Assembly: GCF_030145145.1 (NCBI RefSeq)
Contig: NZ_JAQYWD010000015.1
Span: 1-64,000 of the forward strand
Direction of reading: 5' to 3'
Length of the DNA: 64,000 nt
Source: Desulfobacula sp.
Lineage (GTDB): Bacteria; Desulfobacterota; Desulfobacteria; Desulfobacterales; Desulfobacteraceae
Positions within the stretch are counted from its first letter, which is position 1. Each line of letters begins with the position of its first letter. The position numbers and the translations under genes are program-made. This document shows, one piece after another, positions 2,941 to 21,750 of the stretch. Under the pieces are notes generated by a model. That model was not told the DNA's origin. It worked only from the letters and a program-made list of their open reading frames with translations, and ran no database searches.

Positions 2941-4347
2941 TTAAAACCCAAGCTCTGACCAGCGTTCTTTCACCCGGGCAACCATATCCGGATCAAGCTG
3001 GATCTGGACGGGTTTTGGATCCCACTCGTAAGGAATCGTACAATCCATGAGAAGTCTTCCGGTAATCCATCTGGCATTGATGGGCAGAGAAGGATCCAGC
3101 GGGGTTGAACGGCCTCGCTTGATGACCTGGCAACGATTGGGCTGGAACCTGAAACTCATGGCATACATCACCCTGGGGATGTCCCATGAATCAATGTCTT
3201 CATCCACCACAATGACTGTCTTTAAGCCATAAGCACCCATTTCCGTCGAAATAGCGGCTGTCAATACCTGGTCCACATGTCCCGGATACATCTGTTTCAT
3301 GGAAATGATAGCAAGGAACCTGCCGGCACCTTCCGGGGGGCAATAGCAATTTTTCAAACCGGGAATATTCATTTCATTCAACTGCTGCCAAAGCGTTGCC
3401 CCATAAGACAATGCCATCACCATGTGAGAATCCGTTACCGCTCGCCCGACGGTTGTTCCCCAGTGAATCGGGTTGTTTCTGTAGGTCACACATTTGACAT
3501 CAATAAAGTTTCTGGGATCGGTTCCCACACCGGAATAATACCCGGTGTATTCTCCAAACGGGCCTTCTTCCATGAATTTATCCGCATCCACGAATCCTTC
3601 CACCACAATTTCAGCATGGGCAGGAATCGGCAAATCCACCACTTCCCCTTTAACCACTTCAACCGCTTCACCGCGAAACGCACCAGCCACGTCATATTCA
3701 CTGGTAAATGCACCCACACGGGCAGCACCAAGGATAAACAATATGGGATCGCAACCGGATATGGAGGCCACCGGCATGGGTTGTCCAAGGGCCTGGTATT
3801 TTTTGAGCATGATATCCGCATGTTTTCCTTTGATAAACTGGGTACCGATTTTGTCTTTACCCAGCAACTGACTTCGATAGGTACCCAGGTTTACCCATCC
3901 TGAATCCGGGTCTTTTGTAATAATAAAATGGGCAGTTCCATAATATTTCCCCCCATCCAGAGGATAGTAATGAGGAATAGGGAAGATATTCAAGTCCACA
4001 TCATCCCCCATCATGATGTTCTCTTTACAGGGGGCCTGGCTTTTATCCACATATACTGGCGGGATGGGTTTTTTTGCTTTTTCCGCCCAGGCGCCATACA
4101 GATCGGTGAGGCTTGAATTTTCAGATTCGCCCATTATAATGGCCAGTCTTTGAACTGTGGTTGCAGCACTTGTAATGACGGGTGATTTATAGCCTTTGCA
4201 ATTTTCAAACAGCAATGCGGGGCCCTGGGCTTCTTCATTGAGTTTTGCAATATGCGATAACTCCAAATGGGTGTCAACTTCAGCGGTGATACGTTTCAGA
4301 AGACCTTTTTCTTCACAGACGGCAATAAAATCTCTCATGTCTTTCAT
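2941..4347 (-). CDS. UbiD-family prFMN-dependent (de)carboxylase, probable aryl-phosphate carboxylase
   Basis: This is a 468-aa UbiD-family protein of normal length. It has the family signature TKDPDSGWVNLGTYR with the catalytic Arg near residue 158. EGPFGE supplies the paired glutamates (about 261 and 266) matching the Arg-Glu-Glu triad of prenylated-FMN decarboxylases. I chose the ATG at 4347 because AAGGAG lies 9 bp before it; an in-frame TTG at 4356 is too close to that site. Next to phenylphosphate synthase genes, the likely role is carboxylation of an aryl phosphate to a hydroxybenzoate. Only one UbiD paralogue is visible and no ubiX lies in the window. Confidence 0.9.
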   Translation of the reverse strand: MKDMRDFIAVCEEKGLLKRITAEVDTHLELSHIAKLNEEAQGPALLFENCKGYKSPVITSAATTVQRLAIIMGESENSSLTDLYGAWAEKAKKPIPPVYVDKSQAPCKENIMMGDDVDLNIFPIPHYYPLDGGKYYGTAHFIITKDPDSGWVNLGTYRSQLLGKDKIGTQFIKGKHADIMLKKYQALGQPMPVASISGCDPILFILGAARVGAFTSEYDVAGAFRGEAVEVVKGEVVDLPIPAHAEIVVEGFVDADKFMEEGPFGEYTGYYSGVGTDPRNFIDVKCVTYRNNPIHWGTTVGRAVTDSHMVMALSYGATLWQQLNEMNIPGLKNCYCPPEGAGRFLAIISMKQMYPGHVDQVLTAAISTEMGAYGLKTVIVVDEDIDSWDIPRVMYAMSFRFQPNRCQVIKRGRSTPLDPSLPINARWITGRLLMDCTIPYEWDPKPVQIQLDPDMVARVKERWSELGF

Positions 4348-4480
4348 AAATTTCAACTCCTTTTTCAGTGGTCCCCCTTTTGGTGCAATGGTAGGGTTAC
4401 CGGCGCGATGCGCACTGATTTATATTTTTGGCCAGGCCTTGGGATTCAAGGCCTGGAAATTCGACAAGATTAGGTTATCA

Positions 4481-5563
4481 TCAAGTGAGTTTTCTACCGG
4501 TCACCAATCCGGCACAAATGTGCTCCAGGGCGGAAGACCTGGCTTGAGTGATGGGTTTTCTTTCTTTACTGCTCCACACGGTTTCCGGTCGGCTCTGCAG
4601 GATCAATACTTTTGCTTTGCCGGGGGTGTCTTTATCAATGGCCCATTCAATGTCCATGGCCTTGCCATAATGCTTTTCAATCCGTTTTCCAATAATGGCC
4701 AGTTCAATGACATCTCTATCCACCACACATTGGGTATCGGCTCTTTCTGATGGAATATCCTCTTTTACCACCCTGTGCGCTTTTGGATCACGGATATAAC
4801 AAATGGTTTTATGGGAAATTGATTTTTTAATAATTTCGTCCGTGATCTTGTTCACGATAAAATTATCCGGTGTACATTCACCGCTGACAACACTCTCCCC
4901 AAACCCATAGTTGGCATCTATGGCGATGGTGGACCGATCTCCGGTGGCAGGATTCAATGTAAACATCACCCCCGCAGTCCAGGAATTGGCCATTTTCTGA
5001 ACCCCCACGGAAATTTCCACCTGGTCGTGGGGAAATCCCATTTTTGCCCGGTAATAGATGGCTCTTGCGGTAAAAAGACTTGACCAGCATTTTTTCACAT
5101 GGTTGACAACCCCGTCCGCCCCCCTTACCCAGAGAAACGTATCCTGCTGACCGGCAAAACTGGCGCCCGGAAGATCCTCGGCCGTGGCACTGGATCTGAT
5201 GGCCACGGGTACCGCAGGGACATTGCTTCGTTTGGACAGCCGTCTGTAAAATTCGCAGATATAATCCTGCAGTTCGTCACTGACCGGTGTGCTTTCAATG
5301 AGGGCCCGGATGGCCTTGCTGGCCTCTTCACCCGAATCCATATCATTGACTTTAATGCCATCCAGTATCCTGAAAATCTCCGTTTTGATCTGTCCCTGCT
5401 CAAGGAAAAGGGTATAGGCCTTTGTGGTTACGGCAAAGCCCGGTGGTACTGGAATCTTTGCTTTCAGCAATTCACCCAGGCTGGCGTTTTTGCCCCCCAC
5501 AAGGGGAATGGATGTCAAATCGCATTCTTCAAACCAAAGGACGTAGTCATTTCTTTTTTCCAT
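4481..5563 (-). CDS. ppsB: Phenylphosphate synthase beta-like subunit (PEP-synthase N-terminal, ATP-grasp domain)
   Basis: The 360-aa protein corresponds to the N-terminal ATP-binding half of PEP synthase (PPDK_N). Its start region contains IPLVGGKNASLGEL and IPVPPGFAVTT, and the ATP-grasp core includes RSSATAEDLPGASFAGQQ. It lacks the central swivelling domain and the C-terminal barrel. This split is the one known from anaerobic phenol degraders, where the beta subunit uses ATP to phosphorylate the alpha subunit histidine. It starts 9 bp after the alpha-subunit stop, with GGCAGGATC before the ATG. A PEP or pyruvate role is less likely because the halves are split and sit beside ubiD. Confidence 0.88.
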   Translation of the reverse strand: MEKRNDYVLWFEECDLTSIPLVGGKNASLGELLKAKIPVPPGFAVTTKAYTLFLEQGQIKTEIFRILDGIKVNDMDSGEEASKAIRALIESTPVSDELQDYICEFYRRLSKRSNVPAVPVAIRSSATAEDLPGASFAGQQDTFLWVRGADGVVNHVKKCWSSLFTARAIYYRAKMGFPHDQVEISVGVQKMANSWTAGVMFTLNPATGDRSTIAIDANYGFGESVVSGECTPDNFIVNKITDEIIKKSISHKTICYIRDPKAHRVVKEDIPSERADTQCVVDRDVIELAIIGKRIEKHYGKAMDIEWAIDKDTPGKAKVLILQSRPETVWSSKERKPITQARSSALEHICAGLVTGRKLT

Positions 5564-5572
5564 GATCCTGCC

Positions 5573-7414
5573 CTACCTTTCGATGTAGATTCTGCCGGTA
5601 TCGCCATTGAGCTTAATTTTCATACCAGATTTGATAATCGCTGTTGCCTGACCGGTTCCCACAACTGCCGGCATACCATATTCACGACACACAATGGCAG
5701 CATGGCTCATGATACCACCCACATCCGTGATAACCCCTTTTATTTTCTGGAATACCGGAGCCCAAGACGGAGAAGTGGTGGGGGCCACAAGGATCTCACC
5801 CTCTTTGAGTTGCCCAATATCCTCAACCGACCGGCAGACCCTTGCAATGCCCTCAACCACACCGGGAGACCCTGCAAACCCTTCTATTTCATTGACTTTA
5901 TCCGGATCACCGATTTCTTTTAATTTCGCCCATGCCGCCATACTATCATTGGTAACCCCCCAGAGAACAATGGTAAACGGCTCTGCAATGACTTCAGGCG
6001 GGGTTCCCACCGCAGGGACAGGACGATTTTCTTTAAATAATTTAAAGACTCCTTTTCGCCACTGGATTTCTTCGGGCCAGTGCAGGGGACCATAGCCTTT
6101 TGTGCCGGTGGCCCAGGCTGTCACCAGATCCCATAAGGCTTCCTTGATTTCACTGCGGGACATAAACCAGATGTCTTCGGTTGCATCAATGAAGTGATGA
6201 TCTGCCATGATGACGGCCACCTCTCTCATCTTGTTCCAGAATACGGAATGGAACCAGTGTTCGACATAAAACATATGATTCTCAACATAGGGGAAAACCA
6301 TTTCAGCGGTACCGTGGAGCTGATCAAAGGTCTGTCTGTCCTGATCCGTTGTTAAAAGCCCCCGATACTCCTTGATCAGCTTTTTACGTTCTGCCTTGAT
6401 GGCTTCCATGGGCCGGTCAATGTTTTTACCGCCGTTGAGTTTTTGGATGTAGATTCGAACAGAACTCAAGGGGATATTCAGGTTGTCATTCCAGGAAATA
6501 TCCTGATGATACCATCCGGTTCCCGTTGAAATGTTAAACCAGGGATATTTGGCCTCATCCCAGGCACTGACCCATTTCTTACCCTTTTCAGACCCTTCAA
6601 GTTCCGAAATAACCGTTTTAACGTCCTTGGTATCGTCTCCTATTTGCGAATCAATGCCCAGCTCAATGGCCAGTTTGGCCAGTTTTTTCAGTTCATCATC
6701 CGGTCTGTATAACATCACATCAATGCCGCCCACCATCTGGGTGATTTTCTGGAGGGGAATATCCGGAAAGGCTTTGGTACAGAAATCAACAAAGGTGACA
6801 TAGGAGGCATATCCCAGGTTTAAAAATTCAAAATGATATTGCCAGCAGCGAATTCCCAGATCAATTAAGGTGTCATAATTTTTCAGCATCTGATATCCGC
6901 TTGAGGTCCCCAGTCCGTTTTTGACCACCGAGATATCTTCCATCTCCGGCAGGGGGCTGATTTCCAGGTTTTCAATCTCTGAAATAATCCCTTTCATTTT
7001 CTTTTCCCAGTTGTCATGGAGGGTATCCCAGTTTTCATAATAGTATCCGGCCCTTTCCATGAACATGGGAATTCTTTTTTGAACTTCGTCAGGATCTGTC
7101 ACCGGAACAGGAGAGATATAGACATTCCCGTTGATAATTCTGTGATCGACCCCATAAACCGGTGGAACACTGAAAACCCGGGTATTAAACTGGGATAATG
7201 CCAGAAACCACGCTTCGTCCCAGATAATATCAAAGGGACATAATGGCTCTGGATAATGAAGCGCATCATTGAACCAGAACATATTGTTCTCATACTCTTC
7301 CCGCTCTTTGTCTTTTGTTGTAAATTGATAATGGTACGGGTACATTCTTTCCCACCCTTCTGTGCCAGGGATTGTTGCGATTTCGTGGGGATTAGGAAAA
7401 CTTTTATCAGCCAT
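5573..7414 (-). CDS. ppsA: Phenylphosphate synthase alpha-like subunit (phosphohistidine carrier)
   Basis: This 613-aa protein carries the PEP-utiliser swivelling domain at its C-terminus. The phosphorylated histidine lies near residue 571 in GGIMSHAAIVCREYGMPAVVG. The long N-terminal part is the family-specific substrate domain, not the PEP/pyruvate barrel. Length and domain order match the roughly 70-kDa alpha subunit of phenylphosphate synthase. The start at 7414 is chosen because GGAGG lies 5 bp upstream, whereas the in-frame ATG at 7426 has no such site. It is first in the operon, behind a LysR-type promoter. The substrate may be phenol, catechol, a cresol or aniline; sequence alone does not decide. 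Confidence 0.88.
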   Translation of the reverse strand: MADKSFPNPHEIATIPGTEGWERMYPYHYQFTTKDKEREEYENNMFWFNDALHYPEPLCPFDIIWDEAWFLALSQFNTRVFSVPPVYGVDHRIINGNVYISPVPVTDPDEVQKRIPMFMERAGYYYENWDTLHDNWEKKMKGIISEIENLEISPLPEMEDISVVKNGLGTSSGYQMLKNYDTLIDLGIRCWQYHFEFLNLGYASYVTFVDFCTKAFPDIPLQKITQMVGGIDVMLYRPDDELKKLAKLAIELGIDSQIGDDTKDVKTVISELEGSEKGKKWVSAWDEAKYPWFNISTGTGWYHQDISWNDNLNIPLSSVRIYIQKLNGGKNIDRPMEAIKAERKKLIKEYRGLLTTDQDRQTFDQLHGTAEMVFPYVENHMFYVEHWFHSVFWNKMREVAVIMADHHFIDATEDIWFMSRSEIKEALWDLVTAWATGTKGYGPLHWPEEIQWRKGVFKLFKENRPVPAVGTPPEVIAEPFTIVLWGVTNDSMAAWAKLKEIGDPDKVNEIEGFAGSPGVVEGIARVCRSVEDIGQLKEGEILVAPTTSPSWAPVFQKIKGVITDVGGIMSHAAIVCREYGMPAVVGTGQATAIIKSGMKIKLNGDTGRIYIER

Positions 7415-7584
7415 TTTTGCCTCCATTTAAGAAATTAAGTGTTGAAAAAACCGACCAAACGAAAAACCCGATCCATACTTGCAAAAAACAAAGAGCGTTG
7501 AATGAAGCGTGAAACAGGAACCAAAAACGCTCAAAAAACAAAACAGAAATAAAGTTGTTCAGACAACAAGTATGTGATGGATCT

Positions 7585-7650
7585 GTGATACTGCTTGACA
7601 AAAAAAGTGTCAATTCATATAAACTTATTCGATTTATAAGAATTTCTTAT
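7585..7650 (-). promoter_or_regulatory. LysR-activated promoter of the pps-ubiD operon (element A)
   Basis: On the minus strand, TTGACA (7608-7613) is followed by a 17-bp spacer and TATCAC (7585-7590). ATAAG-AATTT-CTTAT at 7636-7650 is a 7+1+7 palindrome centred about 65 bp before the predicted start, the classic LysR recognition position. The palindrome also lies 45 bp before the divergent regulator gene, so autoregulation is likely. 43 of 55 positions match element B near 12.75 kb without gaps. Confidence 0.75.
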
Positions 7651-7694: not shown

Positions 7695-8654
7695 ATGATC
7701 AACTTGAATCAATTGAGAGCATTTTACTATGTTGCAAAGCACTCAAGCCATACCCTTGCCGCGGAGAAACTCTTTATTTCCCAGCCGGCGGTAACGGCCC
7801 AGATTAAATTGTTTGAAAATTTTTATGAAATAAAGTTGTTCAAAAAACAGGGCAGAAAACTCATTCTTACCCATATCGGAGAACTATTGTTTCAAAAGGC
7901 TGAACGTCTCTTTGAGATTGAGGATGAAGTTGAAAATATTCTGATCCAGATGGCAGAGCTGAATCAGGGACTTTTGGAGTTGGGATGCACCCGGGCCTAT
8001 GCCAAACATATTATGCCGTCTGTTATTTCGGTTTTTCACAGGGCCTATCCGAACATCAAAATCATTCTCAAGGAAGGCAGCTCCATGGCCATGATCAACA
8101 GCCTGATGGAATTTAAAAATGAAGTGGCCGTGGTGGCTCAAATGGAAGTAAAGGACCCAAGGCTTCAATTTGTTCCGTTCAGCCAGGAAGAAATCGTCCT
8201 GGTTCTGCCGGTAAATCATCCGCTGATCCGAAAAAAAGAAATTGAATTTCAAGACATTGTAATGGAGCCATTTATCATGAAGGCCAAAGGCTCTGCTACC
8301 CGGAAAAAAGTCCAGGACCTTTACAAACGACACAACGCGGCCCCCAATATTTTCATGGAATCGGATAATACCGAATTTATTATTGATCTGGTAGAAAGGG
8401 GAGAGGGAATATCCTTTCTGGTCAAGCCCACCATTGATCAGAAAATAAAAGAAAAAAAACTGGTCTCCCGAAGATTAAAAGGCACTGAAATATTTCTTGA
8501 CGTGAATTTTTGCTACCTGAAAAACACACCGCTGTCACCTGCTGCCAAAGCCTTTTTCAATGTGCTCAAAAATTCATTTATCAAAAGATCTCCCCAGGGA
8601 GGTGTTGGCTCCATCATGGCCAGAATTCTTGCCGTGAACCACCAGAACAGATGA
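7695..8654 (+). CDS. LysR-type transcriptional regulator 1
   Basis: This is a 319-aa regulator with an N-terminal winged HTH (residues 1-60; LAAEKLFISQPAVTAQIKLFE is the helix-turn-helix zone) and a LysR effector-binding domain. It is divergent from the pps operon and separated by about 280 bp containing element A. Its N-terminus (MINLNQLRAFY) is identical to that of the convergent neighbour, so the two are paralogues. The subtype looks CbbR/CysB-like, whose members often bind TTATAAG-type half sites. I infer that it activates the pps-ubiD operon in response to an aromatic inducer. Confidence 0.92.
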   Translation: MINLNQLRAFYYVAKHSSHTLAAEKLFISQPAVTAQIKLFENFYEIKLFKKQGRKLILTHIGELLFQKAERLFEIEDEVENILIQMAELNQGLLELGCTRAYAKHIMPSVISVFHRAYPNIKIILKEGSSMAMINSLMEFKNEVAVVAQMEVKDPRLQFVPFSQEEIVLVLPVNHPLIRKKEIEFQDIVMEPFIMKAKGSATRKKVQDLYKRHNAAPNIFMESDNTEFIIDLVERGEGISFLVKPTIDQKIKEKKLVSRRLKGTEIFLDVNFCYLKNTPLSPAAKAFFNVLKNSFIKRSPQGGVGSIMARILAVNHQNR

Positions 8655-8699: not shown

Positions 8700-9659
8700 T
8701 CAATGATCCATACCCCTGTAGTGCGGCGGTATGGTGTCCAGTAAATTATCGATACCCTGGAAACACACGTCCCTTGTCCTTAAGGTCTCCAGGTTGTCAA
8801 TAAAAATCTGTGCCGGAGGTGAAAGGGGCTGATCTTTTAAATAGGCAATGCTCACATCCAAAAACAGTTTCTGTCCTTTTAGAGGGACCGTTGCCAGTTT
8901 TTTCTCTTTAAGTTCACCCTCCACAGCCCCGCTTGCCAGAAATGAAATCCCTTCTCCATGCTGAACCAGCAATTTCGTCATTTCCGCATTGCTCATTTGC
9001 ATTAATATCTTTGGCGCGCACCCGTTTGCCGCAAACAATTCGTTGACCAGCCGACGGGTTCCTGAACCGGGTTCTTTCATGATAATCGGTTCATCCGCCA
9101 CCTCCTGGAATGTGATCGTTTTTTTGTGTGCCAGGTGATGATCCGGTGGAAGGATAAGGATCATCTCTTCCCGGCTGAAGGGAACAAAGCAAATATCCGT
9201 TAATTCTTTTGCCTCGGCCACCACCACCAATTCGTTTTTAAAATCAAAAAGGCTCTGGATCATGTCCTTGGAACTGCCTTCATCCATCTCTATTTTGATA
9301 TGCGGGTAGGGCTCCCGAAAATGGGCGATCAAAAACGGCATACAATACCGGGCATACGTCCTGGCTGTGCCGATCCGCAAGGTACCCCGCTTTAATTTCT
9401 TGATCTCTTCAACCACTGTCTCGATTTCTTTTTCACAGTCAAAGATCTTTTTTGAATAGTCATAGAGGGTCTTGCCTTCATCCGTGAGATAAAGTTTACC
9501 CCCTTTTTTCTTGAAAAGCTTCAGCTCCAGGTGATCCTCAAAGAGCTTCAAATGGGCTGTAACTGCCGGCTGTGTAATAAAAAGCTTTTTAGCGGCTGTG
9601 CTGAAATTCATATGCTTGGCAGCCTGATAAAAGGCCCTGAGTTGATTTAGGTTGATCAT
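8700..9659 (-). CDS. LysR-type transcriptional regulator 2 (paralogue)
   Basis: This 319-aa protein has the same architecture and start (MINLNQLRAFY) as the regulator at 7695, with HTH residues TAAKKLFITQPAVTAHLKLFE. The two genes converge with 45 bp between stop codons. No ATAAG-N5-CTTAT element is seen before its own start, unlike the paralogue. It may sense a second effector or modulate the same promoters. The Shine-Dalgarno site is weak (GTTGGAAAA). Confidence 0.92.
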   Translation of the reverse strand: MINLNQLRAFYQAAKHMNFSTAAKKLFITQPAVTAHLKLFEDHLELKLFKKKGGKLYLTDEGKTLYDYSKKIFDCEKEIETVVEEIKKLKRGTLRIGTARTYARYCMPFLIAHFREPYPHIKIEMDEGSSKDMIQSLFDFKNELVVVAEAKELTDICFVPFSREEMILILPPDHHLAHKKTITFQEVADEPIIMKEPGSGTRRLVNELFAANGCAPKILMQMSNAEMTKLLVQHGEGISFLASGAVEGELKEKKLATVPLKGQKLFLDVSIAYLKDQPLSPPAQIFIDNLETLRTRDVCFQGIDNLLDTIPPHYRGMDH

Positions 9660-9990: not shown

Positions 9991-11133
9991 TTACTCAGGG
10001 TTGGGCGCATCAGGTGGCGCCGGTGTTGGGGGCAGCGGCCAGAAATCCCACAGGTCACCATAACAGGCCCAGGCAGGGAAACTCAGGCCCAGCATCATGG
10101 TGGCCAGTACAAATATGTTGTTTGGATATGTCATTACCGAATCACCAAAATGCCAGACAGCGATGGCTATATAAGCATTATAAGCGGCAATACCAATGAC
10201 AATGGCGATCAACATGTTAACAAATCCCGATAAGGGATTTGAAAGTGCCCGGCCCGGCCACATCTGGAACATCGTCATCATCATCAATAACCCGTATAGA
10301 AAACAAATGCCATACAGCATGAAGTTAAGGGGCTCGATTTTTAAGGTATTGACCCCTATCCCATAGGCGATGCCGGAAAGGACTCCGCAAGTTATGACCA
10401 GGACGATTCCCAGCACGGGTTGTTTCATGATCCCCGGGAATTTGTTAAGCGGCCACATATCCAGCGCTGCAAAGGAAAAAAGAAAAATGAGCATCCAGAA
10501 ATAGAAGGTAATCGCACATTCCCAACGAAAGAATCCGCTGGGTGCGATGTCGGCAAAAGGCGCCAAAGGTCCGCCTGGGGCATAGAAGGGGACCGCCTGA
10601 ACGGAAGATAGATATTCTCCGGTGGGAAAAGACAATAAATCAAAATTAAACAGGAGTTTGTTTAAAAAGAACATGAGCACATATGCCAACAGCAATGTCA
10701 GCCATCCACTGGCGCCCAGCGACAATTTGTTGAATGGCCACAACCCGAAGGCAATAACAAGAAAGAACGTTGTAATAACAACCGTGATCGCATAAATGTT
10801 CGTGAAGGGTTGCGCAGCACCGCGACTCATGAAATTAAGAATCACATAACTGGCCATGACGCCGATAATCGCCACGAAAATTGTCAGTAATATCCCGCGC
10901 CACGGTTGTTTAATCCCCTCTGTTGAGGGATATGTGCCCTGCTGCCAACCCAGGGCGACCATAACCAGGATGGGAATAAAAGACAAGATGAGAAGCGTGA
11001 AATGTCCGTTAAACGTTTTCATACTAAAAATGGTCGTAAGTAAAAACGTGTACCCCACTGTGACGACCACACCAAAAAAACCGCGCCAGGGTTGTGGTAT
11101 GGTCCAGCGTTCTGCTGGTGTTAATTCATTCAT
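9991..11133 (-). CDS. Polytopic membrane protein with WP-repeat units, function unknown
   Basis: The 380-aa protein is almost entirely hydrophobic, with roughly ten or more membrane segments. It is built from repeated units. A QPWRG-like motif recurs at residues 14, 76, 238 (QPVLG) and 299 (NPLSG). A WP motif recurs at 132 (LWPFNK), 227 (MWPLNK), 292 (MWPGRA) and 365 (FWPLPP). The C-terminus is proline-rich. The start at 11133 has GGGAGG 10 bp upstream; longer frames have no such site. Its promoter (element C) matches those of the pps operon and idi, so I infer a role in the same pathway, perhaps aromatic uptake or efflux. I do not recognise a named family. Confidence 0.8.
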   Translation of the reverse strand: MNELTPAERWTIPQPWRGFFGVVVTVGYTFLLTTIFSMKTFNGHFTLLILSFIPILVMVALGWQQGTYPSTEGIKQPWRGILLTIFVAIIGVMASYVILNFMSRGAAQPFTNIYAITVVITTFFLVIAFGLWPFNKLSLGASGWLTLLLAYVLMFFLNKLLFNFDLLSFPTGEYLSSVQAVPFYAPGGPLAPFADIAPSGFFRWECAITFYFWMLIFLFSFAALDMWPLNKFPGIMKQPVLGIVLVITCGVLSGIAYGIGVNTLKIEPLNFMLYGICFLYGLLMMMTMFQMWPGRALSNPLSGFVNMLIAIVIGIAAYNAYIAIAVWHFGDSVMTYPNNIFVLATMMLGLSFPAWACYGDLWDFWPLPPTPAPPDAPNPE

Positions 11134-11203: not shown

Positions 11204-11269
11204 ATTGTGAGGTGCGAATTAACTCAGGTCAATTCAATTAACTTGATAGGGGGCATAAGTTTTCTTTAT
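11204..11269 (-). promoter_or_regulatory. LysR-type promoter of repeat membrane protein (element C)
   Basis: Read leftward, TTGACC (11227-11232), a 17-bp spacer and CACAAT (11204-11209) form a weak promoter. ATAAG-TTTTC-TTTAT at 11255-11269 is centred about 65 bp upstream of the predicted start. From 11228 to 11269 it matches element B at 28 of 42 positions without gaps. Weak core boxes plus a -65 palindrome fit an activator-dependent promoter. Confidence 0.62.
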
Positions 11270-11438: not shown

Positions 11439-12098
11439 ATGAAAATAGCTGTTTTTTCGGATGTACACAGTTGCTATGTGAAAATGGCCGCTGTTTTTGA
11501 AGACATGGAAAAATATAACATTGATCACTATATTTGTCTGGGAGACATTATTGGGTATGGAGACCAGCCCGAAGAAACCATTAAATTGTTAAAAGAAAAA
11601 AATGTCGTCTCCGTCAAGGGAAACCATGAACTGGCCATGTTTAAAAGAAGTTATCTTGAAGTTTTTCCCAAGGAGATCAAACAGCCACTGCTGGATAATA
11701 TCGCTGCAATTTCCACTGCATCCGTCCGATACCTGGAAGATACCCCTGACTATTTAAAATTGGGAAACGCGCATTTTGTCCATGGCACGCCACCGGATAA
11801 ATTAACGACCTATATCTATGATGTGACGGATTACTATTTAAAAACCCTGTTTAACAATTCCGAAGAACGGATTTTCTTTACAGGTCACACCCATAAATTA
11901 AAATTAATCACTTACAAAGACCGACTGGTATATCGTCGGAGAATTGTAAAAAATTGCACCATCCCTTTGGAAAAAAACCAGAAATATCTGTTAAATGTGG
12001 GAAGTATCGGATTTTCCCGGGATGATTTTGAAGCCTCCAAATATGCCGTGTATGATACGGTAAACAAAGAGATCATGGTCAGGATGGTGACCGCATAA
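11439..12098 (+). CDS. Calcineurin-like metallophosphoesterase (YfcE/ApaH-like)
   Basis: A 219-aa two-metal phosphoesterase. All core motifs are visible: SDVH near the start (DxH), GDIIGYG (GDxxxxG), KGNHE (GNHE) and GHTHK (GHxH). Such proteins hydrolyse phosphodiesters or phosphomonoesters in the cytoplasm. The substrate is unknown. AAGGG lies before the ATG. It is divergent from the repeat membrane protein across element C, and its 3' end overlaps idi by 20 bp in convergent orientation. Confidence 0.9.
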   Translation: MKIAVFSDVHSCYVKMAAVFEDMEKYNIDHYICLGDIIGYGDQPEETIKLLKEKNVVSVKGNHELAMFKRSYLEVFPKEIKQPLLDNIAAISTASVRYLEDTPDYLKLGNAHFVHGTPPDKLTTYIYDVTDYYLKTLFNNSEERIFFTGHTHKLKLITYKDRLVYRRRIVKNCTIPLEKNQKYLLNVGSIGFSRDDFEASKYAVYDTVNKEIMVRMVTA

Positions 12099-12630
12099 AT
12101 GTATTAAATTTTTTGTCTGAAGCTAAAATCCGGGTTTCCTCGATACACCAGGGAGAATACCGCTCGGGACAGGTAATCGTTTCTTCCAGCCACGCCGCCC
12201 ATTTTACCCACTTGACAGCCTGAACTTCCCGTGGATCAGGGGTCACTTTGCCATCATAACATCCGATAAAAATAGGACAAATTTCATTTTCCATGACACC
12301 ATCCTTTGAAAAACAATACCGGTAGTCTGAAATTTTTTCAACCGTCGTCAGGTCCACCCCAAGCTCATAGCGGGTTCTCCGCATCACAGCGCTCGCATAG
12401 GATTCACCGGGGTATGGATGACCGCAGCAGGAATTTGACCATACCAGGGGCCATGTCTTTTTACCTTCCGCCCTTTGCTGCAGCAGCAGTTCTTTAGCGG
12501 CGTTAAACAAAAAAAGAGAAAATGCCCTGTGCAAAGGGGTTTCCTGCGTATGGACGGTCCGTTTCTCCTGAATGCCAATTTTTCTATCCCTTTCATCTAC
12601 CAGGACCACATAGTCTTCAGTATTTTTCAT
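12079..12630 (-). CDS. idi: Isopentenyl-diphosphate delta-isomerase, type I
   Basis: The 183-aa Nudix-fold enzyme interconverts IPP and DMAPP. Expected residues are present: His-27, His-34, His-71, Glu-114 and Glu-116 match the metal ligands of the E. coli enzyme, and catalytic Cys-69 lies in NSCCGHP. The length is that of E. coli Idi. The start at 12630 has AGGAG 6 bp upstream; the in-frame ATG at 12654 does not. Its promoter (element B) shares the LysR architecture of the pps-ubiD operon. DMAPP is the prenyl precursor of prFMN, the UbiD cofactor, so co-regulation is meaningful. No other isoprenoid gene is nearby. Confidence 0.93.
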   Translation of the reverse strand: MKNTEDYVVLVDERDRKIGIQEKRTVHTQETPLHRAFSLFLFNAAKELLLQQRAEGKKTWPLVWSNSCCGHPYPGESYASAVMRRTRYELGVDLTTVEKISDYRYCFSKDGVMENEICPIFIGCYDGKVTPDPREVQAVKWVKWAAWLEETITCPERYSPWCIEETRILASDKKFNTFMRSPS

Positions 12631-12736
12631 TTTCAACTCCTGCTGAATCTTCACTCATCTGCGGATTGATGGCAAAATTAGTCTCTTGTTTAAACATCAT
12701 CATATGGATGGGCAGAAGGCACCGGGCCTTTCATAT

Positions 12737-12802
12737 ACAATATGAAGTGACAAGAAGAATGTCAATTCCTATAAACTGATGAAACCTATAAGTTTTTCTT
12801 AT
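12737..12802 (-). promoter_or_regulatory. LysR-type promoter of idi (element B)
   Basis: On the minus strand, TTGACA (12760-12765), a 17-bp spacer and TATTGT (12737-12742) form a good sigma-70 promoter about 100 bp before the idi start. ATAAG-TTTTT-CTTAT at 12788-12802 is centred near -65. The 55-bp block 12748-12802 matches element A at 43 positions with no gaps. Confidence 0.75.
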
Positions 12803-12830
12803 CGTGTTTATATAAAAATGCGACAGCAGA

Positions 12831-13012
12831 GCCCCCGAAGGGCGATCGGATCGGCCCATTCGGACCCAAAGGCGATCAGCCCATTTGCCCTGCCGGGCGT
12901 TAAGAAGCGCAGGCTGTTTGAGGACACACCTGCCCGCAGTTCCTGCGCTTTAGACCGTTAGGGCAAATGGGTCGCCGACGGTCCGGGGCCGATCCGATAG
13001 CCCTTCGGGGGC
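12831..13012. repeat. 182-bp nested palindrome (possible MITE/REP-like element or structured RNA)
   Basis: Outer arms 12831-12857 and 12985-13012 pair with one mismatch over about 27 bp. CGGACC (12861-12866) pairs with GGTCCG (12980-12985). A middle pair, 12871-12891 with 12959-12975, includes a perfect 12-bp CCCATTTGCCCT arm. AAGCGCAGG (12905-12913) pairs with CCTGCGCTT (12942-12950). The whole segment folds on itself and is GC-richer than its surroundings. No protein is encoded. It sits between idi and the kinase gene and resembles a transposase-less mobile repeat. Confidence 0.75.
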
Positions 13013-13103
13013 GGCATAATACCATTTTCGTTATTCCTTGCGTCGGCAGGCCGACATGTGGGTTATAGCCATAATGAGACTTGCTGATGGTCCTGCTTCA
13101 TGG

Positions 13104-16130: not shown

Positions 16131-16481
16131 TTATCCCAGATAAATGTCCTTGAAAATTTTTCCAGATACATCATTGAGCCGCACCTGGAGCTGTTTAAAT
16201 CGGTGTACCATGACTTTCGCTTCAGGTGTCAGAATCGACTGGCCACCTGAAACTCCGCCTTTTTGGCGGATCAAAAGGGGCTTTCCCATTCTTTGCTCAA
16301 TCTTTTTGAGCCGTCCCCACATGGATCGGTATCCCATGCGCATTGATTTTGCCGCAGCACTGATGGAGCCATAGTTTTCAATGGCTTCCAATATCTTGAG
16401 CTGACCTTCTCCAAACAGGGTTTCCCCTGTTTCACATTCAATCCAGACTTTTATACGAACCCTTGTGTTTGAATTCTCCAT
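16131..16481 (-). CDS. ModE-like molybdenum-responsive regulator, DNA-binding domain only
   Basis: A 116-aa winged-helix protein of the ModE N-terminal/LysR-HTH type. It shows the family pattern GQLKILEAIENYGSISAAAK, MGYRSMWGRLKKIE and KGGVSGGQSILTPEA. It lacks the C-terminal MOP/TOBE molybdate-binding domains of E. coli ModE. The ATG at 16481 is preferred over an in-frame GTG at 16520, with GGTAAGG about 13 bp upstream. It is divergent from a molybdenum hydroxylase operon and a perfect palindrome lies between them, so it probably controls that operon and itself. Confidence 0.85.
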   Translation of the reverse strand: MENSNTRVRIKVWIECETGETLFGEGQLKILEAIENYGSISAAAKSMRMGYRSMWGRLKKIEQRMGKPLLIRQKGGVSGGQSILTPEAKVMVHRFKQLQVRLNDVSGKIFKDIYLG

Positions 16482-16533
16482 GGCATTGACAACCTTACCC
16501 TGGAATGCTGCCTGTGTCACTCAAAAATTTTTC

Positions 16534-16565
16534 AAAGCGATATGTTTGTGTTGACATATCGCTTT
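16534..16565. promoter_or_regulatory. Perfect 12+12 palindrome, probable ModE-like operator
   Basis: AAAGCGATATGT (16534-16545) and ACATATCGCTTT (16554-16565) are exact reverse complements around an 8-bp spacer. TTGACA (16551-16556) is embedded in the site and could be the -35 of the rightward hydroxylase promoter, with TATTTC 17 bp on. Binding here would block that promoter. It lies directly between the regulator and the hydroxylase genes. Confidence 0.8.
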
Positions 16566-16623
16566 TTCAATGATATTTCCGTAACGCATTATGCAATTTT
16601 TTCATTAACAAAAGGGGGATTTT

Positions 16624-17505
16624 ATGCTGTTACCCAAGTTTGAATTTTATGAACCGACCTCCATTCAGGAGGCCATAGACTTAAAGAAAAAATACCGTGG
16701 AAAAGCAAAACTGATGGCCGGGGGGACGGATCTCCTGGTCCATCTTAAGAAAAAGTTAGTGACCGCAGACCACCTCATCAGCCTGGCAAAAATCAAAGAA
16801 TTATCTCAAGTCCAACAAGCGGGGGATACCCTTAAAATTGGTACCTGTGTTACCATGTCACAACTTTCCAAATCAGCGGTCATTCAGGAAAAATTTGGTG
16901 CCATCAAGACTGCCAGCGACAATCTGGGCACACATTTGATCAGAAACAGGGCAACCCTTGGCGGAAATGTCTGTAATGCAAGTCCTGCCGGCGAGGCCCT
17001 TCCTTCTCTCATCGTGTATCAGGCACAGGTGCGTTTACAGGGACCCGAAGGAAAACGCAAGATACCTGTTGAATCTTTTTTTAAGGGCCCGGGCAAAACC
17101 GATATTCATGAAGGGGAAATATTGGTTGGTTTTCAACTGCCCCTGCCGGAAAAAAACTATGGTGCCCACTATCTCCAACTGGGAAAACGGAAATCCTCGG
17201 AAATCAATGTCGTCAACGTGGCCGCCTTCGTTGAAATCAACCCGGCTGATCAGACCGTTAAAACAGCCAGGATTGCCCTGGGATCCGTAGCGGCAACTCC
17301 GATCCGGTCTTTCCATGCAGAAGATGTATTAACGAACAAAGCCCCAGGCGAAGCAGTGTTTTATGAAGCCGGAGAAGCAGCTCGACATAAAGACTGCCAA
17401 CCCATTGATGACTTCCGAGGTACGGCAGCGTACCGGAGGGCCATGATCGGTGTATTGACCAAACGAACCCTTGAAACTGCCTGTAAACTGGCAATGGCCC
17501 AATAA
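16624..17505 (+). CDS. Molybdenum hydroxylase, FAD-binding subunit
   Basis: A 293-aa CoxM/HcrB-type subunit that passes electrons between FAD and the [2Fe-2S] subunit. The FAD motifs MAGGTDLL (31-38) and TLGGNVCNASPAGE (111-124) are present. 4-Hydroxybenzoyl-CoA reductase has an inserted loop of about 40 residues carrying a [4Fe-4S] cluster just after this second motif. That loop is absent here, as in ordinary xanthine-dehydrogenase-family enzymes. First gene of a three-gene operon, 17 bp before the 2Fe-2S subunit. Confidence 0.92.
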   Translation: MLLPKFEFYEPTSIQEAIDLKKKYRGKAKLMAGGTDLLVHLKKKLVTADHLISLAKIKELSQVQQAGDTLKIGTCVTMSQLSKSAVIQEKFGAIKTASDNLGTHLIRNRATLGGNVCNASPAGEALPSLIVYQAQVRLQGPEGKRKIPVESFFKGPGKTDIHEGEILVGFQLPLPEKNYGAHYLQLGKRKSSEINVVNVAAFVEINPADQTVKTARIALGSVAATPIRSFHAEDVLTNKAPGEAVFYEAGEAARHKDCQPIDDFRGTAAYRRAMIGVLTKRTLETACKLAMAQ

Positions 17506-17522
17506 ACATTCAGGAGAATTCA

Positions 17523-18005
17523 ATGAAAAAAATCGTAACCCTAACCATAAACAAAGAACACTATGAAGTGGCTGTTGAGCCGAATCGAACCCTTGCCGAC
17601 CTTCTTCGGTATGACCTTGGACTGACCGGCACAAAAAAAGGATGTGACACGGGCGATTGTGGCGCCTGCACGGTTGTGCTGGATGGTGATGTGGTCAATT
17701 CCTGCCTTGTCCTTGCACTTCAGGCAGACAACACAACCATTGAAACCATTGAGGGATTGAGCAATGAAGACGGACTGCACCCCCTGCAGGAAGCCTTTGT
17801 TGAGAAAGGGGCCATTCAATGCGGATTTTGTACGCCCGGTATGATCATGTCCGCAAAAAACCTTCTGGATAAAAATGGCAACCCAAGTGACACGGAAATC
17901 AGGGAAGGCCTTTCAGGAAATCTTTGCCGCTGCACAGGATATACAAAAATCTTTGAAGCCGTTTCATCTCAATGTTCAGACAATCAAGGAGGTTCCAATG
18001 AGTAA
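17523..18005 (+). CDS. Molybdenum hydroxylase, [2Fe-2S] subunit
   Basis: A 160-aa ferredoxin-like subunit with both cluster motifs. Cys-41, 46, 49 and 61 bind the plant-type cluster (CDTGDCGAC). Cys-100, 103, 135 and 137 bind the second cluster (CGFC and CRC). Its length fits HcrC/CoxS. GGAG precedes the ATG. Its stop overlaps the start of the large subunit by 8 bp (ATGAGTAA), so translation of the two is coupled. Confidence 0.95.
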   Translation: MKKIVTLTINKEHYEVAVEPNRTLADLLRYDLGLTGTKKGCDTGDCGACTVVLDGDVVNSCLVLALQADNTTIETIEGLSNEDGLHPLQEAFVEKGAIQCGFCTPGMIMSAKNLLDKNGNPSDTEIREGLSGNLCRCTGYTKIFEAVSSQCSDNQGGSNE

Positions 18006-20358
18006 ATTTGATGTCATCAACAGCTATGCGCCTCGAATTGACTGTCCGGATAAGGCAACGGGAAAAGCCATTTTTACCGATGACCTCTCCAAACCTGGAA
18101 TGCTTTATGGTGCCATGCTGCAAAGTCCCCATGCCCACGCAAAAATTCTTTCCATTGACACCTCAAAAGCAAAAGCGCTTGAAGGGGTTAAAGCCGTCAT
18201 CACATCCAAAGAAACCGGGAGTGTTAAGTATGGCGTCAGCCCGGCGCGTTACGATGAAACAATGTTTGCCACGGACAAAGTTCGATATGTCGGTGATGAA
18301 ATTGCAGCGGTTGCCGCCACCAGCCTTGAAATTGCATTAAACGCCGTCGCATTGATCCAGGTGGAATATGAAGTGCTGCCGGCGGTATTAACGGTGGAAG
18401 ATGCCATGAAAGAAGGGGCTCCCCAACTCCACGAAGCGTTTACCAACAACCTTTGCGCTGAAGTTCACCAGGAATTCGGCAATGTGGAAGAAGGGTTTAA
18501 GCAATGTGATATTATTAAAACCACCACCATGAAAAACAAACGCCAGGACGGCGCCTTTATTGAAATGCAGGCCTGTATAGCAGAATACGACAGAAGGGGC
18601 ACGCTTACCCTGACCACTTCTACCCAGGTACCGCACTATGTTCAGAGAACCGTTGCCATGGTCCTGGGCATGGACGTTGGAAAGGTAAGGGTTATAAAGC
18701 CATACGTGGGAGCCGGTTTTGGTATCAAGGCCGCGGCAAATCACCAGGAATTGGCCTGCTGTTTTCTTGCCAGGATGTTAAAAAAACCAGTTAAAATGAA
18801 TTATACAAGAGAACAGGTTTTCATGTATGGCAGGGCCCGCCACCAGTTCAGCCACACCATTACAACCGGTGCAAAAAAAGACGGCACTCTGGTGGCCCTG
18901 AAACATGAATGTTATCTGGACGGGGGTGCCTATACCAGCTTTGGCATTGCCACGGTATACTATACCGGTTCCCTTCTTGCAGGTCCCTATAAGCTGCCGA
19001 ACATGAGTTATGACGGCTACCGGGTATACAACAACAAACCCGCCTGCGGTGCTCAAAGGGGACATGGTGCCGTGATTGCCCGGGCTGTTTTTGAGCAGCA
19101 AATGGACATGATTGCCGAAGAAATCGGCATGGATCCCCTGGAACTGCGCATTAAAAATATGATGAATACCGGTGATACCACCTGTAACGATCTGAACATG
19201 AGTTCCTTTGGTATGTCAGAATGCATTGAAGCGGTTCGGGACGGCTCCGGATGGGACAAGAAAAAAGGAAATATGCCCAAAGGCAAAGGCATTGGAATGG
19301 CCTGTGGATTTTTTGTGTCCGGTGCCGGATTCCCCATCTACCGATCAGATACCTTTCACGGCACCGTCATTGTCAAATTAACAGAAGACGGTGGCACAGC
19401 ACTAGTTTACACCGCATCCGCGGAAATTGGCCAGGGATCGGATACGGCGTTTGCCATGATCGTGGGGGAAGCCTTGGGTATCCCCCTGGAAAATGTCAGA
19501 CTGGCTTCCGGAGATACGGATATGGGCGTTGACCTGGGGGCCTATTCCAGCCGTCAGACCCTCATGACCGGCCATGCAGCCAAAGAGGCCGGCGAACATG
19601 CCAAACAACAGGTCTTGGAAGTATTGGCAGAGCAGCTTGACACGCCCCTGGAAGACATGGATATCAAGAACGGATGTATTGAATTCAAAAACCAGACCCC
19701 GGATTTTTCCGCTTTAAGAACCCGGTATATCAAAGAACACAGGGGATGGACCGATAATCCGGAATCTGAAAAACTCACGTTTAAAGAAGCATCAAGGATC
19801 GCTTTCCTTGAAAAAGGATCCATTGTCGGGACGGGTAAATATCGACCCCACTGGCTTGGCGGCAAATTCAAGGGAGCAGCCGTTGGCACCTCTCCTGCTT
19901 ATGGATGCAGTGCCCAGGTGGCGGAAGTCACCGTTGATATGGAAACCGGCCAGATAACCATTGATAACATCGTGGATGCCCATGATTGCGGGAAAGCCAT
20001 CAATCGGAACTCCGTTGAGGGCCAGATGCAGGGATCTATTTCCATGGGAATCGGGGAAACCATGCATGAAGAAGTTATCTTTAATGATAAAGGCCAGGTA
20101 CTGAACAGTGATCTGGCTGAATATAAAATCGTGACCGCCATGGACATGCCCCCGGTCAAGGCCATCGTGGTTGAAAGTGATGAGCCCAATGGACCCTACG
20201 GGGCAAAAGAAGTCGGGGAAGGGGCCATCATGCCCACCATCCCGGCTATCCTGAATGCGGTGTATGATGCCACCGGTGTCAGGATGAATGAACTGCCCCT
20301 GACACCGGAACGGGTGTATACAGCCATTCAGGCATACAAGGAACGATCAAACGCCTGA
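17998..20358 (+). CDS. Molybdenum hydroxylase, molybdopterin-binding subunit (HcrA-like)
   Basis: A 786-aa catalytic subunit. Conserved sites include RVIKPYVGAGFGIKAA, CGAQRGHGAV and the C-terminal PNGPYGAKEVGEGA, whose last conserved Glu (about residue 741) is the catalytic base in this family. AAGGAGG precedes the ATG at 17998; an upstream in-frame start inside the 2Fe-2S gene lacks such a site. Several blocks resemble the large subunit of 4-hydroxybenzoyl-CoA reductase as I remember it, which would fit the nearby aryl-phosphate operon. The missing [4Fe-4S] loop in the FAD subunit argues for a different acceptor or substrate. Confidence 0.92.
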   Translation: MSKFDVINSYAPRIDCPDKATGKAIFTDDLSKPGMLYGAMLQSPHAHAKILSIDTSKAKALEGVKAVITSKETGSVKYGVSPARYDETMFATDKVRYVGDEIAAVAATSLEIALNAVALIQVEYEVLPAVLTVEDAMKEGAPQLHEAFTNNLCAEVHQEFGNVEEGFKQCDIIKTTTMKNKRQDGAFIEMQACIAEYDRRGTLTLTTSTQVPHYVQRTVAMVLGMDVGKVRVIKPYVGAGFGIKAAANHQELACCFLARMLKKPVKMNYTREQVFMYGRARHQFSHTITTGAKKDGTLVALKHECYLDGGAYTSFGIATVYYTGSLLAGPYKLPNMSYDGYRVYNNKPACGAQRGHGAVIARAVFEQQMDMIAEEIGMDPLELRIKNMMNTGDTTCNDLNMSSFGMSECIEAVRDGSGWDKKKGNMPKGKGIGMACGFFVSGAGFPIYRSDTFHGTVIVKLTEDGGTALVYTASAEIGQGSDTAFAMIVGEALGIPLENVRLASGDTDMGVDLGAYSSRQTLMTGHAAKEAGEHAKQQVLEVLAEQLDTPLEDMDIKNGCIEFKNQTPDFSALRTRYIKEHRGWTDNPESEKLTFKEASRIAFLEKGSIVGTGKYRPHWLGGKFKGAAVGTSPAYGCSAQVAEVTVDMETGQITIDNIVDAHDCGKAINRNSVEGQMQGSISMGIGETMHEEVIFNDKGQVLNSDLAEYKIVTAMDMPPVKAIVVESDEPNGPYGAKEVGEGAIMPTIPAILNAVYDATGVRMNELPLTPERVYTAIQAYKERSNA

Positions 20359-20363
20359 ATCCC

Positions 20364-20616
20364 ATGAGATATATCAGACAAACAACCCTTCCCCAGATCG
20401 GCACCAACGGTCAGACAACGTTTTTTAGAGCATCTGTTCTGATTGCAGGTGCCCGGGGACTGGGTTCTATATTTTCCTATTATCTGGCAGTTGCAGGTAT
20501 TGGGAATCTCATCAAGGTAATCCATCTTAAAATCAGACCGTGTAAAAATGGGCCTTGGTGGATGCTGCTCAAACGGCAAAACCTGCCGGTATCCATCCTG
20601 CAATTTTGGGAAATAG
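20364..20616 (+). pseudogene. Broken MoeB/ThiF-family gene (deletion plus frameshift)
   Basis: The first 50 codons read as a clear E1-like adenylyltransferase start: MRYIRQTTLPQIG, then SVLIAGARGLGS and VAGIG. Near 20515 the family similarity ends abruptly. In the +1 frame from 20521, a cysteine-rich tail (CCSNGKTCRYPSCNFGK) runs to a TAG at 20614-20616, directly against the next start codon. The middle of the gene appears deleted. MoeB-type proteins activate the MoaD sulfur carrier for molybdopterin synthesis, consistent with its place after a Mo enzyme. GARGLG also departs from the usual GxGGLG. Confidence 0.65.
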
Positions 20617-21750
20617 ATGATGAAACAGCAACTTAAAACAACCGCAGACGTTAGTCCCGTGTCAGCAGTTATCCTGGCGGCAGGGTTTTCCTCCCGGATG
20701 AAAGATTTCAAGCCCCTGCTGCCCGTCGGCGGCACAACAATGGTGGAAGCGGTCATCCACCTGTTCAAGGCCAATCAAATTACCGATATCATTGTTGTGA
20801 CGGGCCATAATTCAGGTCTGCTTGAACCCTGTGTAAAAAATGCCGGGGCCCGTCCAGTATTCAATCCAGACTATGCTTCCGGGATGCTGACCTCTATTCA
20901 GAAGGGCATCAAAAACATCCGGCCAAACCATTCTGGATTTTTCCTTCTTCCCGTGGATATACCCGCCATCCGTCCTTCCACGATCTACCGAATGATTCAG
21001 GCGTTTCAAACAACCGCCGATCATGTGATAATGCCGTATTTCGATGCCACACCGGGGCATCCGCCCCTGATACCCTATCGGTTTAAAAAAGATATCCTGG
21101 AATTAAAAAACGGCGCTACCCTAAGGGATGTCCTCCTGTCCCCTGAAACCCCTGTGATGCGGCTGAAAGTTTGTGACCGGGGGGTTGTGATGGATGCTGA
21201 TGATAAAAAAGGGTATAAACAGGTCTGTCGCAAACTTCGCGCCCAAAAGATTCCTGACAAGGAGGAATGCCTTGCCATCATCAACGAAATGCTGCCCGGG
21301 GAGACCCATATCCGAAAGCATCTGGCCGATGTCTCTTTTGCTGCCCTGAAAATCACCCATGCCCTCACAGACAAACTGAACACGGATCTGGTGATCGCCG
21401 CAGCAATGCTCCATGATATCAAACGAAAGGAAAAACACCATGCTGCTGCCGGCGCACGATTGATACAGGACATCGGATTCAGCGAAGTGTCAGAAATCAT
21501 TGCCCAGCATATGGACATCCATGTTGATCCCACGACCCCGGTCAAAGAAAAAGAAATTGTCTATTTTGCCGATAAAATCTGCAATGGACATGGCGTTGAC
21601 TTAAATTACCACAAACGGTTTGTAGAATGTATAATAAAATCACCCTGGGCCCGGACCAACATTTCAAGACGGTATGAAAATACTCGACTCATACAAGCCA
21701 GAATTGAAGCATCCGCCCAAAAACCTATTGAGGAAATCCTCTCCTGCTGA
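20617..21750 (+). CDS. MocA-like molybdopterin nucleotidyltransferase fused to an HD domain
   Basis: A 377-aa fusion. Residues about 1-205 form a MobA/MocA-like NTP transferase with LAAGFSSRMKDFK (20-32), VVTGH and GHPPLIP. Such enzymes attach CMP or GMP to molybdopterin. Residues about 220-377 form an HD phosphohydrolase domain with AAAMLHDIKR (HD near 266). It follows the hydroxylase genes, so a Mo-cofactor maturation role is likely. The HD partner's substrate is unknown. It overlaps the following phosphatase by 77 bp. Confidence 0.87.
   Translation: MMKQQLKTTADVSPVSAVILAAGFSSRMKDFKPLLPVGGTTMVEAVIHLFKANQITDIIVVTGHNSGLLEPCVKNAGARPVFNPDYASGMLTSIQKGIKNIRPNHSGFFLLPVDIPAIRPSTIYRMIQAFQTTADHVIMPYFDATPGHPPLIPYRFKKDILELKNGATLRDVLLSPETPVMRLKVCDRGVVMDADDKKGYKQVCRKLRAQKIPDKEECLAIINEMLPGETHIRKHLADVSFAALKITHALTDKLNTDLVIAAAMLHDIKRKEKHHAAAGARLIQDIGFSEVSEIIAQHMDIHVDPTTPVKEKEIVYFADKICNGHGVDLNYHKRFVECIIKSPWARTNISRRYENTRLIQARIEASAQKPIEEILSC

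Follow-up and report, generated by a model that had tools for sequence, protein, structure and literature searches.

Why should a gene of general isoprenoid metabolism carry the same type of promoter as an operon for an aromatic carboxylase? The question is raised by a 64,000-nucleotide stretch of a Desulfobacula sp. genome (hereafter the window; contig NZ_JAQYWD010000015.1, positions 1 to 64,000), in which idi, the gene of a type-1 isopentenyl-diphosphate delta-isomerase, accompanies a cluster encoding a PpsAB-type synthase and a UbiD-type carboxylase. In organisms that rely on the MEP route, Idi is dispensable for general isoprenoid synthesis. Since IspH is present in this genome (280 bits, over cut-off) and no mevalonate kinase over cut-off was found in it, Idi should be dispensable for this purpose here as well; a role as an essential enzyme of the mevalonate pathway is ruled out, because only the MEP route is present. 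The reading favoured here, with a probability of roughly 0.8, is that idi belongs to an aromatic-activation regulon together with PpsAB, UbiD, a CoA ligase and UbiX, and that it raises DMAPP for the synthesis of prenylated FMN (prFMN) by UbiX.

The idi gene and its promoter element

The idi reading frame occupies positions 12079-12654 on the minus strand, as stated in the preliminary description, and its assignment is confirmed by profile matches: the protein scores 211 bits against NCBIfam PRK03759.1 (cut-off 127) and 149 bits against TIGR02150 (cut-off 105.8). It aligns with E. coli Idi structures (about 1e-37) and retains the active-site motifs CGHP at 77 and ENE at 122. Translation probably begins at the ATG at 12630, which the Shine-Dalgarno sequence AGGAG precedes, and the gene product is an intact Idi-1, predicted to act as an isomerase. 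A gene for a calcineurin-like phosphoesterase (11439-12098, plus strand; assigned by Pfam Metallophos_2 and synteny) converges with idi in a 20-bp overlap; in relatives, it usually stays beside the gene of the regulator LysR1 (see below). Directly upstream of the idi promoter, a largely self-complementary repeat of 206 bp (12820-13025) is found, which has eight near-complete copies of at least 94% identity and many fragments elsewhere in the genome; neither this repeat nor the window as a whole gave a match in Rfam.

The core promoter of idi, TTGACA-N17-TATTGT (12737-12765, minus strand), agrees with the consensus at 10 of 12 positions and is the best on the idi strand within the stretch scanned, the -10 hexamer TATTGT (12742-12737) being located 17 nt downstream of the -35. 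A 43-bp LysR-type element (12760-12802, minus strand) overlaps this -35 box: an ATAAG-N5-CTTAT box of the T-N11-A type is followed by an activation half-site and the -35, so that the element reads ATAAGAAAAACTTAT-N7-ATCAGTTTATAGGAATTGACA (palindrome, second half-site, -35). A second copy precedes ppsA in the intergenic region between this gene and the divergent LysR1 (7608-7650, minus strand), and a third, which the preliminary description had overlooked, precedes a membrane protein gene (11227-11269, minus strand). The form common to the idi and ppsA elements is ATAAG-N5-CTTAT ... ATNAGTTTATANGAATTGACA. These two sites align over ~70 bp with a local score of 66, the highest score among 2000 mononucleotide shuffles being 41. 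With up to three mismatches permitted, three sites were returned from the 5.66-Mb genome, all within this cluster, and the reversed control pattern returned none at the same threshold. Shuffles and genome-wide counts thus rule out a chance likeness of the two promoters and agree with the initial claim that idi and ppsA have the same LysR-type promoter.

The divergent LysR gene at ppsA and the shape of the box point to a LysR-type protein as the putative binder of the element, the likely regulator being LysR1 (7695-8654, plus strand; Pfam HTH_1 and LysR_substrate), which almost all relatives likewise encode divergently from ppsA. A second LysR-type regulator, LysR2 (8700-9659, minus strand; assigned by Pfam), has a 78% relative that precedes a second ppsA copy at another locus (L195). 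The third unit under the element encodes the membrane protein (9991-11133, minus strand, start estimated from sequence), for which there was no match in NCBIfam or Pfam and no counterpart in the related clusters examined; it may serve in the uptake of the aromatic compound.

The carboxylase cluster and the position of ubiX

All genes of the carboxylase run are located on the minus strand. They comprise ppsA (5573-7426; NF006152, 1020 bits, cut-off 723), encoding a phenylphosphate-synthase-type subunit with a PEP-utiliser domain; ppsB (4481-5563; Pfam PPDK_N, 401 bits), encoding a PEP-synthase ATP-binding half; ubiD (2941-4356), of the phenylphosphate carboxylase beta type, with a score only just above the TIGR02724 cut-off (480 vs 469 bits); acsL (1111-2766; AMP-binding), encoding an acyl/aryl-CoA ligase; and the gene of a UPF0261 protein (1-1028), which is cut by the contig end. 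In the UbiD protein, the R...E(5)E motif of the prFMN site is retained in the form of R159 and the EGPFGE pair at 264. The remainder of the UPF0261 gene opens another contig (C21): over 127 bases, the start of the window's contig is identical to that of C21, in opposite orientation and inside this gene. C21 then carries, all in the same direction, the genes of a CBS-domain protein, UbiX (C21:1063-1704) and a HAD phosphatase; this UbiX is the single one over cut-off in the genome. Because of the exact overlap and because the single-contig relative G245 (probably Desulfobacula toluolica Tol2) has the same gene order as the window joined to C21, ubiX is very probably situated downstream of ubiD and under the same element. 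The HAD phosphatase was also considered as a phenylphosphate carboxylase delta subunit and rejected, the profile of that subunit being absent among the best 25 matches listed. Beside the cluster (16131-21750), genes are found for a ModE-like protein, a three-subunit molybdenum hydroxylase, which resembles 4-hydroxybenzoyl-CoA reductase below cut-off and also adjoins the cluster in G245, and a molybdenum-cofactor nucleotidyltransferase-like protein.

This arrangement could operate in the following manner: the ATAAG-N5-CTTAT element, which lies upstream of the -35 of ppsA as well as of idi, is most likely bound by LysR1, and this regulator would activate both genes in the presence of an aromatic inducer. 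Idi would then raise DMAPP, which UbiX would use to produce the prFMN cofactor for UbiD. With ubiX downstream in the ppsA-ubiD run, carboxylase, cofactor synthase and prenyl-donor enzyme would rise together, and the greater supply of prFMN would presumably be relevant to growth on the aromatic.

Recurrence of the linkage in other genomes

The preliminary description had proposed that idi is co-regulated with the UbiD cluster, and comparison within the family lends support to this proposal. Among 86 family genomes, idi is found in 10 (two truncated copies included) and ppsA in 23, each of the 10 with idi also having ppsA (Fisher p = 3e-7, without correction for phylogeny); in the 63 family genomes without ppsA, no idi over cut-off was detected. 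The location of idi by ppsAB-ubiD likewise recurs: in all cases that the contig allows to be checked, it lies next to or within the cluster, the named loci including Desulfobacula sp. CSMAG_2491, a Desulfotignum MAG and Desulfobacterales RIFOXYA12. When up to three mismatches are allowed, the element occurs at 27 sites in 22 of the 86 genomes, the reversed control pattern at none. All sites with surroundings examined precede ppsA or idi, apart from the membrane-protein site of this genome; a T-N11-A element upstream of the -35 thus marks the member promoters and is absent elsewhere in this genome and among the sites so examined in the family.

On the idi side, the element is present in five genomes (G000, G245, G347, G326 and G348), where it stands out against unaligned flanks, and G313 keeps its -35-side half. 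In G237 and G316, idi is instead the last gene of the uninterrupted run ppsA-ppsB-ubiD-acsL-UPF0261-CBS-ubiX-TIGR04076-HAD-x-(riboflavin-kinase-like + HAD)-idi, its start overlapping the preceding stop codon. The same co-expression would be expected from both designs, a separate copy of the element and fusion into an operon-like run. At two loci (L103:4948-6093 and L186:10959-12101), the protein encoded between ubiX and idi is a CTP-dependent riboflavin-kinase-like domain fused to a HAD phosphatase; CTP-dependent riboflavin kinases are a family of archaeal type. Since idi is lacking in 13 of the 23 ppsA genomes and broken in others (truncated in G263, a short remnant in G336 and G337), Idi is an enhancement of the cluster and not a requirement, i.e. 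dispensable and boosting rather than enabling.

A third tie to a carboxylase, besides the separate copy of the element and the fusion into the ppsA-ubiD-ubiX run, is provided by a second idi in G245, which belongs to a cluster encoding a distant UbiD, a ligase, a TAXI-TRAP transporter, UbiX and Idi. This cluster is present in five tandem copies of ~19-23 kb each (L106-L110, about 3.17-3.27 Mb), probably an amplified aromatic-carboxylase cluster; an idi remnant is also found directly after ubiX in G245. In a second family of the phylum (f125), a divergent idi occurs in 16 of 39 genomes and adjoins ubiX in three of the 16 (G634, G754 and G739), with ubiD also nearby in the same strand run in G634 and G754. 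Hence, idi adjoins ubiX or shares a run with it in unrelated lineages. Two f125 genomes encode, beside ubiX and idi, a PAC_bac-domain protein (PF21758; L226:6512-6901 and L246:7089-7478), which may be a cofactor-related accessory protein. In a maximum-likelihood tree, the ubiX-linked Idi proteins of f125 and the ppsA-linked ones fall into separate, strongly supported clades; judged by this tree, idi has been recruited to the linkage at least twice. Across the phylum, idi is not linked to ubiX as a rule: most idi genes examined outside the family are without such a neighbour.

These data bear on two other explanations of the shared regulation. The co-regulation could serve a greater general need for isoprenoids (menaquinone, undecaprenyl lipids) during growth on the aromatic rather than prFMN, as Idi affects the whole IPP/DMAPP pool and the cluster is presumably expressed in a growth mode of its own. 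This is unlikely in view of the fact that idi keeps company with ubiX or ubiD in several architectures and two families, and that the gene lists and profile scans examined show no further isoprenoid gene in these clusters, whereas a riboflavin-kinase-like domain, acting on the side of the other UbiX substrate, does occur in idi clusters; moreover, family genomes without ppsA-ubiD are also without idi. Still somewhat less probable is that the element is a relic of promoter duplication or cluster rearrangement, with idi a hitchhiker that has no function in aromatic metabolism. Such an origin would fit the fact that, in this genome, the gene of a seemingly unrelated membrane protein also has the element, and the loss of idi from several relatives, but not the distinctness of the idi-side element from its flanks in five genomes, nor its decay (four mismatches) where idi itself has decayed (G336, G337); the placement of idi within an operon-like run in G237 and G316 and its separate recruitment to ubiX in another family likewise speak against a mere relic.

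Proposed prenyl-donor supply and comparison with known systems

The supply of prenyl donor for prFMN thus remains the favoured role of idi. Each active site needs a single molecule of prFMN, and some DMAPP is already made by IspH; both points count against a need for additional donor. UbiX makes prFMN for UbiD enzymes from FMN and either DMAP or DMAPP, and the position that discriminates between the two donors is Gln203 in the DMAPP-specific A. niger enzyme and Phe181 in P. aeruginosa UbiX (PMC6541611). Because the UbiX proteins here have Gln at the position of A. niger Gln203, direct use of DMAPP, the product of Idi, is consistent with their sequences and may occur, although this residue alone does not fix the donor specificity of UbiX. 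The prFMN dependence of the UbiD protein is presumptive, since a relative, the phenylphosphoamidate carboxylase of Desulfatiglans anilini, is active in vitro with only FMN (PMC7500099). That the protein is mainly a DMAPP diphosphohydrolase providing DMAP for UbiX, rather than an isomerase, is hardly credible: Idi-1 is a Nudix-fold enzyme and the E. coli Nudix proteins NudB, NudF, NudI and NudJ turn DMAPP into DMAP (PMC12359138), but the Idi-specific catalytic motifs are intact, the Idi equivalog cut-offs are exceeded and the UbiX here has the Gln of the DMAPP-specific enzyme.

In a broader reading, to which about even odds are given, some Desulfobacterota would possess a dedicated, substrate-induced supply module for prFMN that is wired to its aromatic carboxylase and was assembled at least twice; it would comprise Idi (for DMAPP), the CTP-dependent-riboflavin-kinase-like protein (for FMN), HAD and calcineurin-like phosphatases, which may set the supply of DMAP or flavin, and UbiX. 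If the favoured role of idi is right, UbiD catalysis can be limited in nature by the supply of prenyl donor, and catabolic regulons have more than once taken in an isoprenoid enzyme of the housekeeping type. The riboflavin-kinase-like and phosphatase genes nearby would then be candidates for the supply steps that remain, and an easy means of raising holo-UbiD in strains engineered for carboxylation is also suggested.

It is well known that the synthesis of a cofactor may be regulated together with the enzyme that depends on it. For prFMN, the papers found had connected UbiX alone with UbiD enzymes, and no report of a natural prenyl-donor supply gene tied to ubiX or ubiD turned up in the mainly open-access literature searched. 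LysR regulators with T-N11-A boxes (CbbR/BenM-like) are typically divergent from their target and have a palindromic distal box and a second half-site abutting the -35. The layout here is the same, with the differences that binding is putative and that the targets include an isoprenoid enzyme. With the UbiX-UbiD system (PMC6541611), the locus would have UbiX-made prFMN for UbiD in common. The pps-ppc phenol clusters of Thauera aromatica, D. anilini and Geobacter metallireducens likewise encode a PpsAB-type synthase, a UbiD-type carboxylase beta subunit and an aryl-CoA ligase (PMC6114531, PMC7500099). As here, a ubiX-like gene is part of the D. anilini phenol cluster, and proteomics detects its product in phenol-grown cells only (PMC7500099). 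The system described here differs in idi and the LysR-type element, a text search of the two D. anilini papers showing mention of neither isopentenyl isomerase nor LysR; in marine sulfate reducers that activate phenol-type aromatics, idi appears to be placed under the element of the carboxylase or within its gene string.
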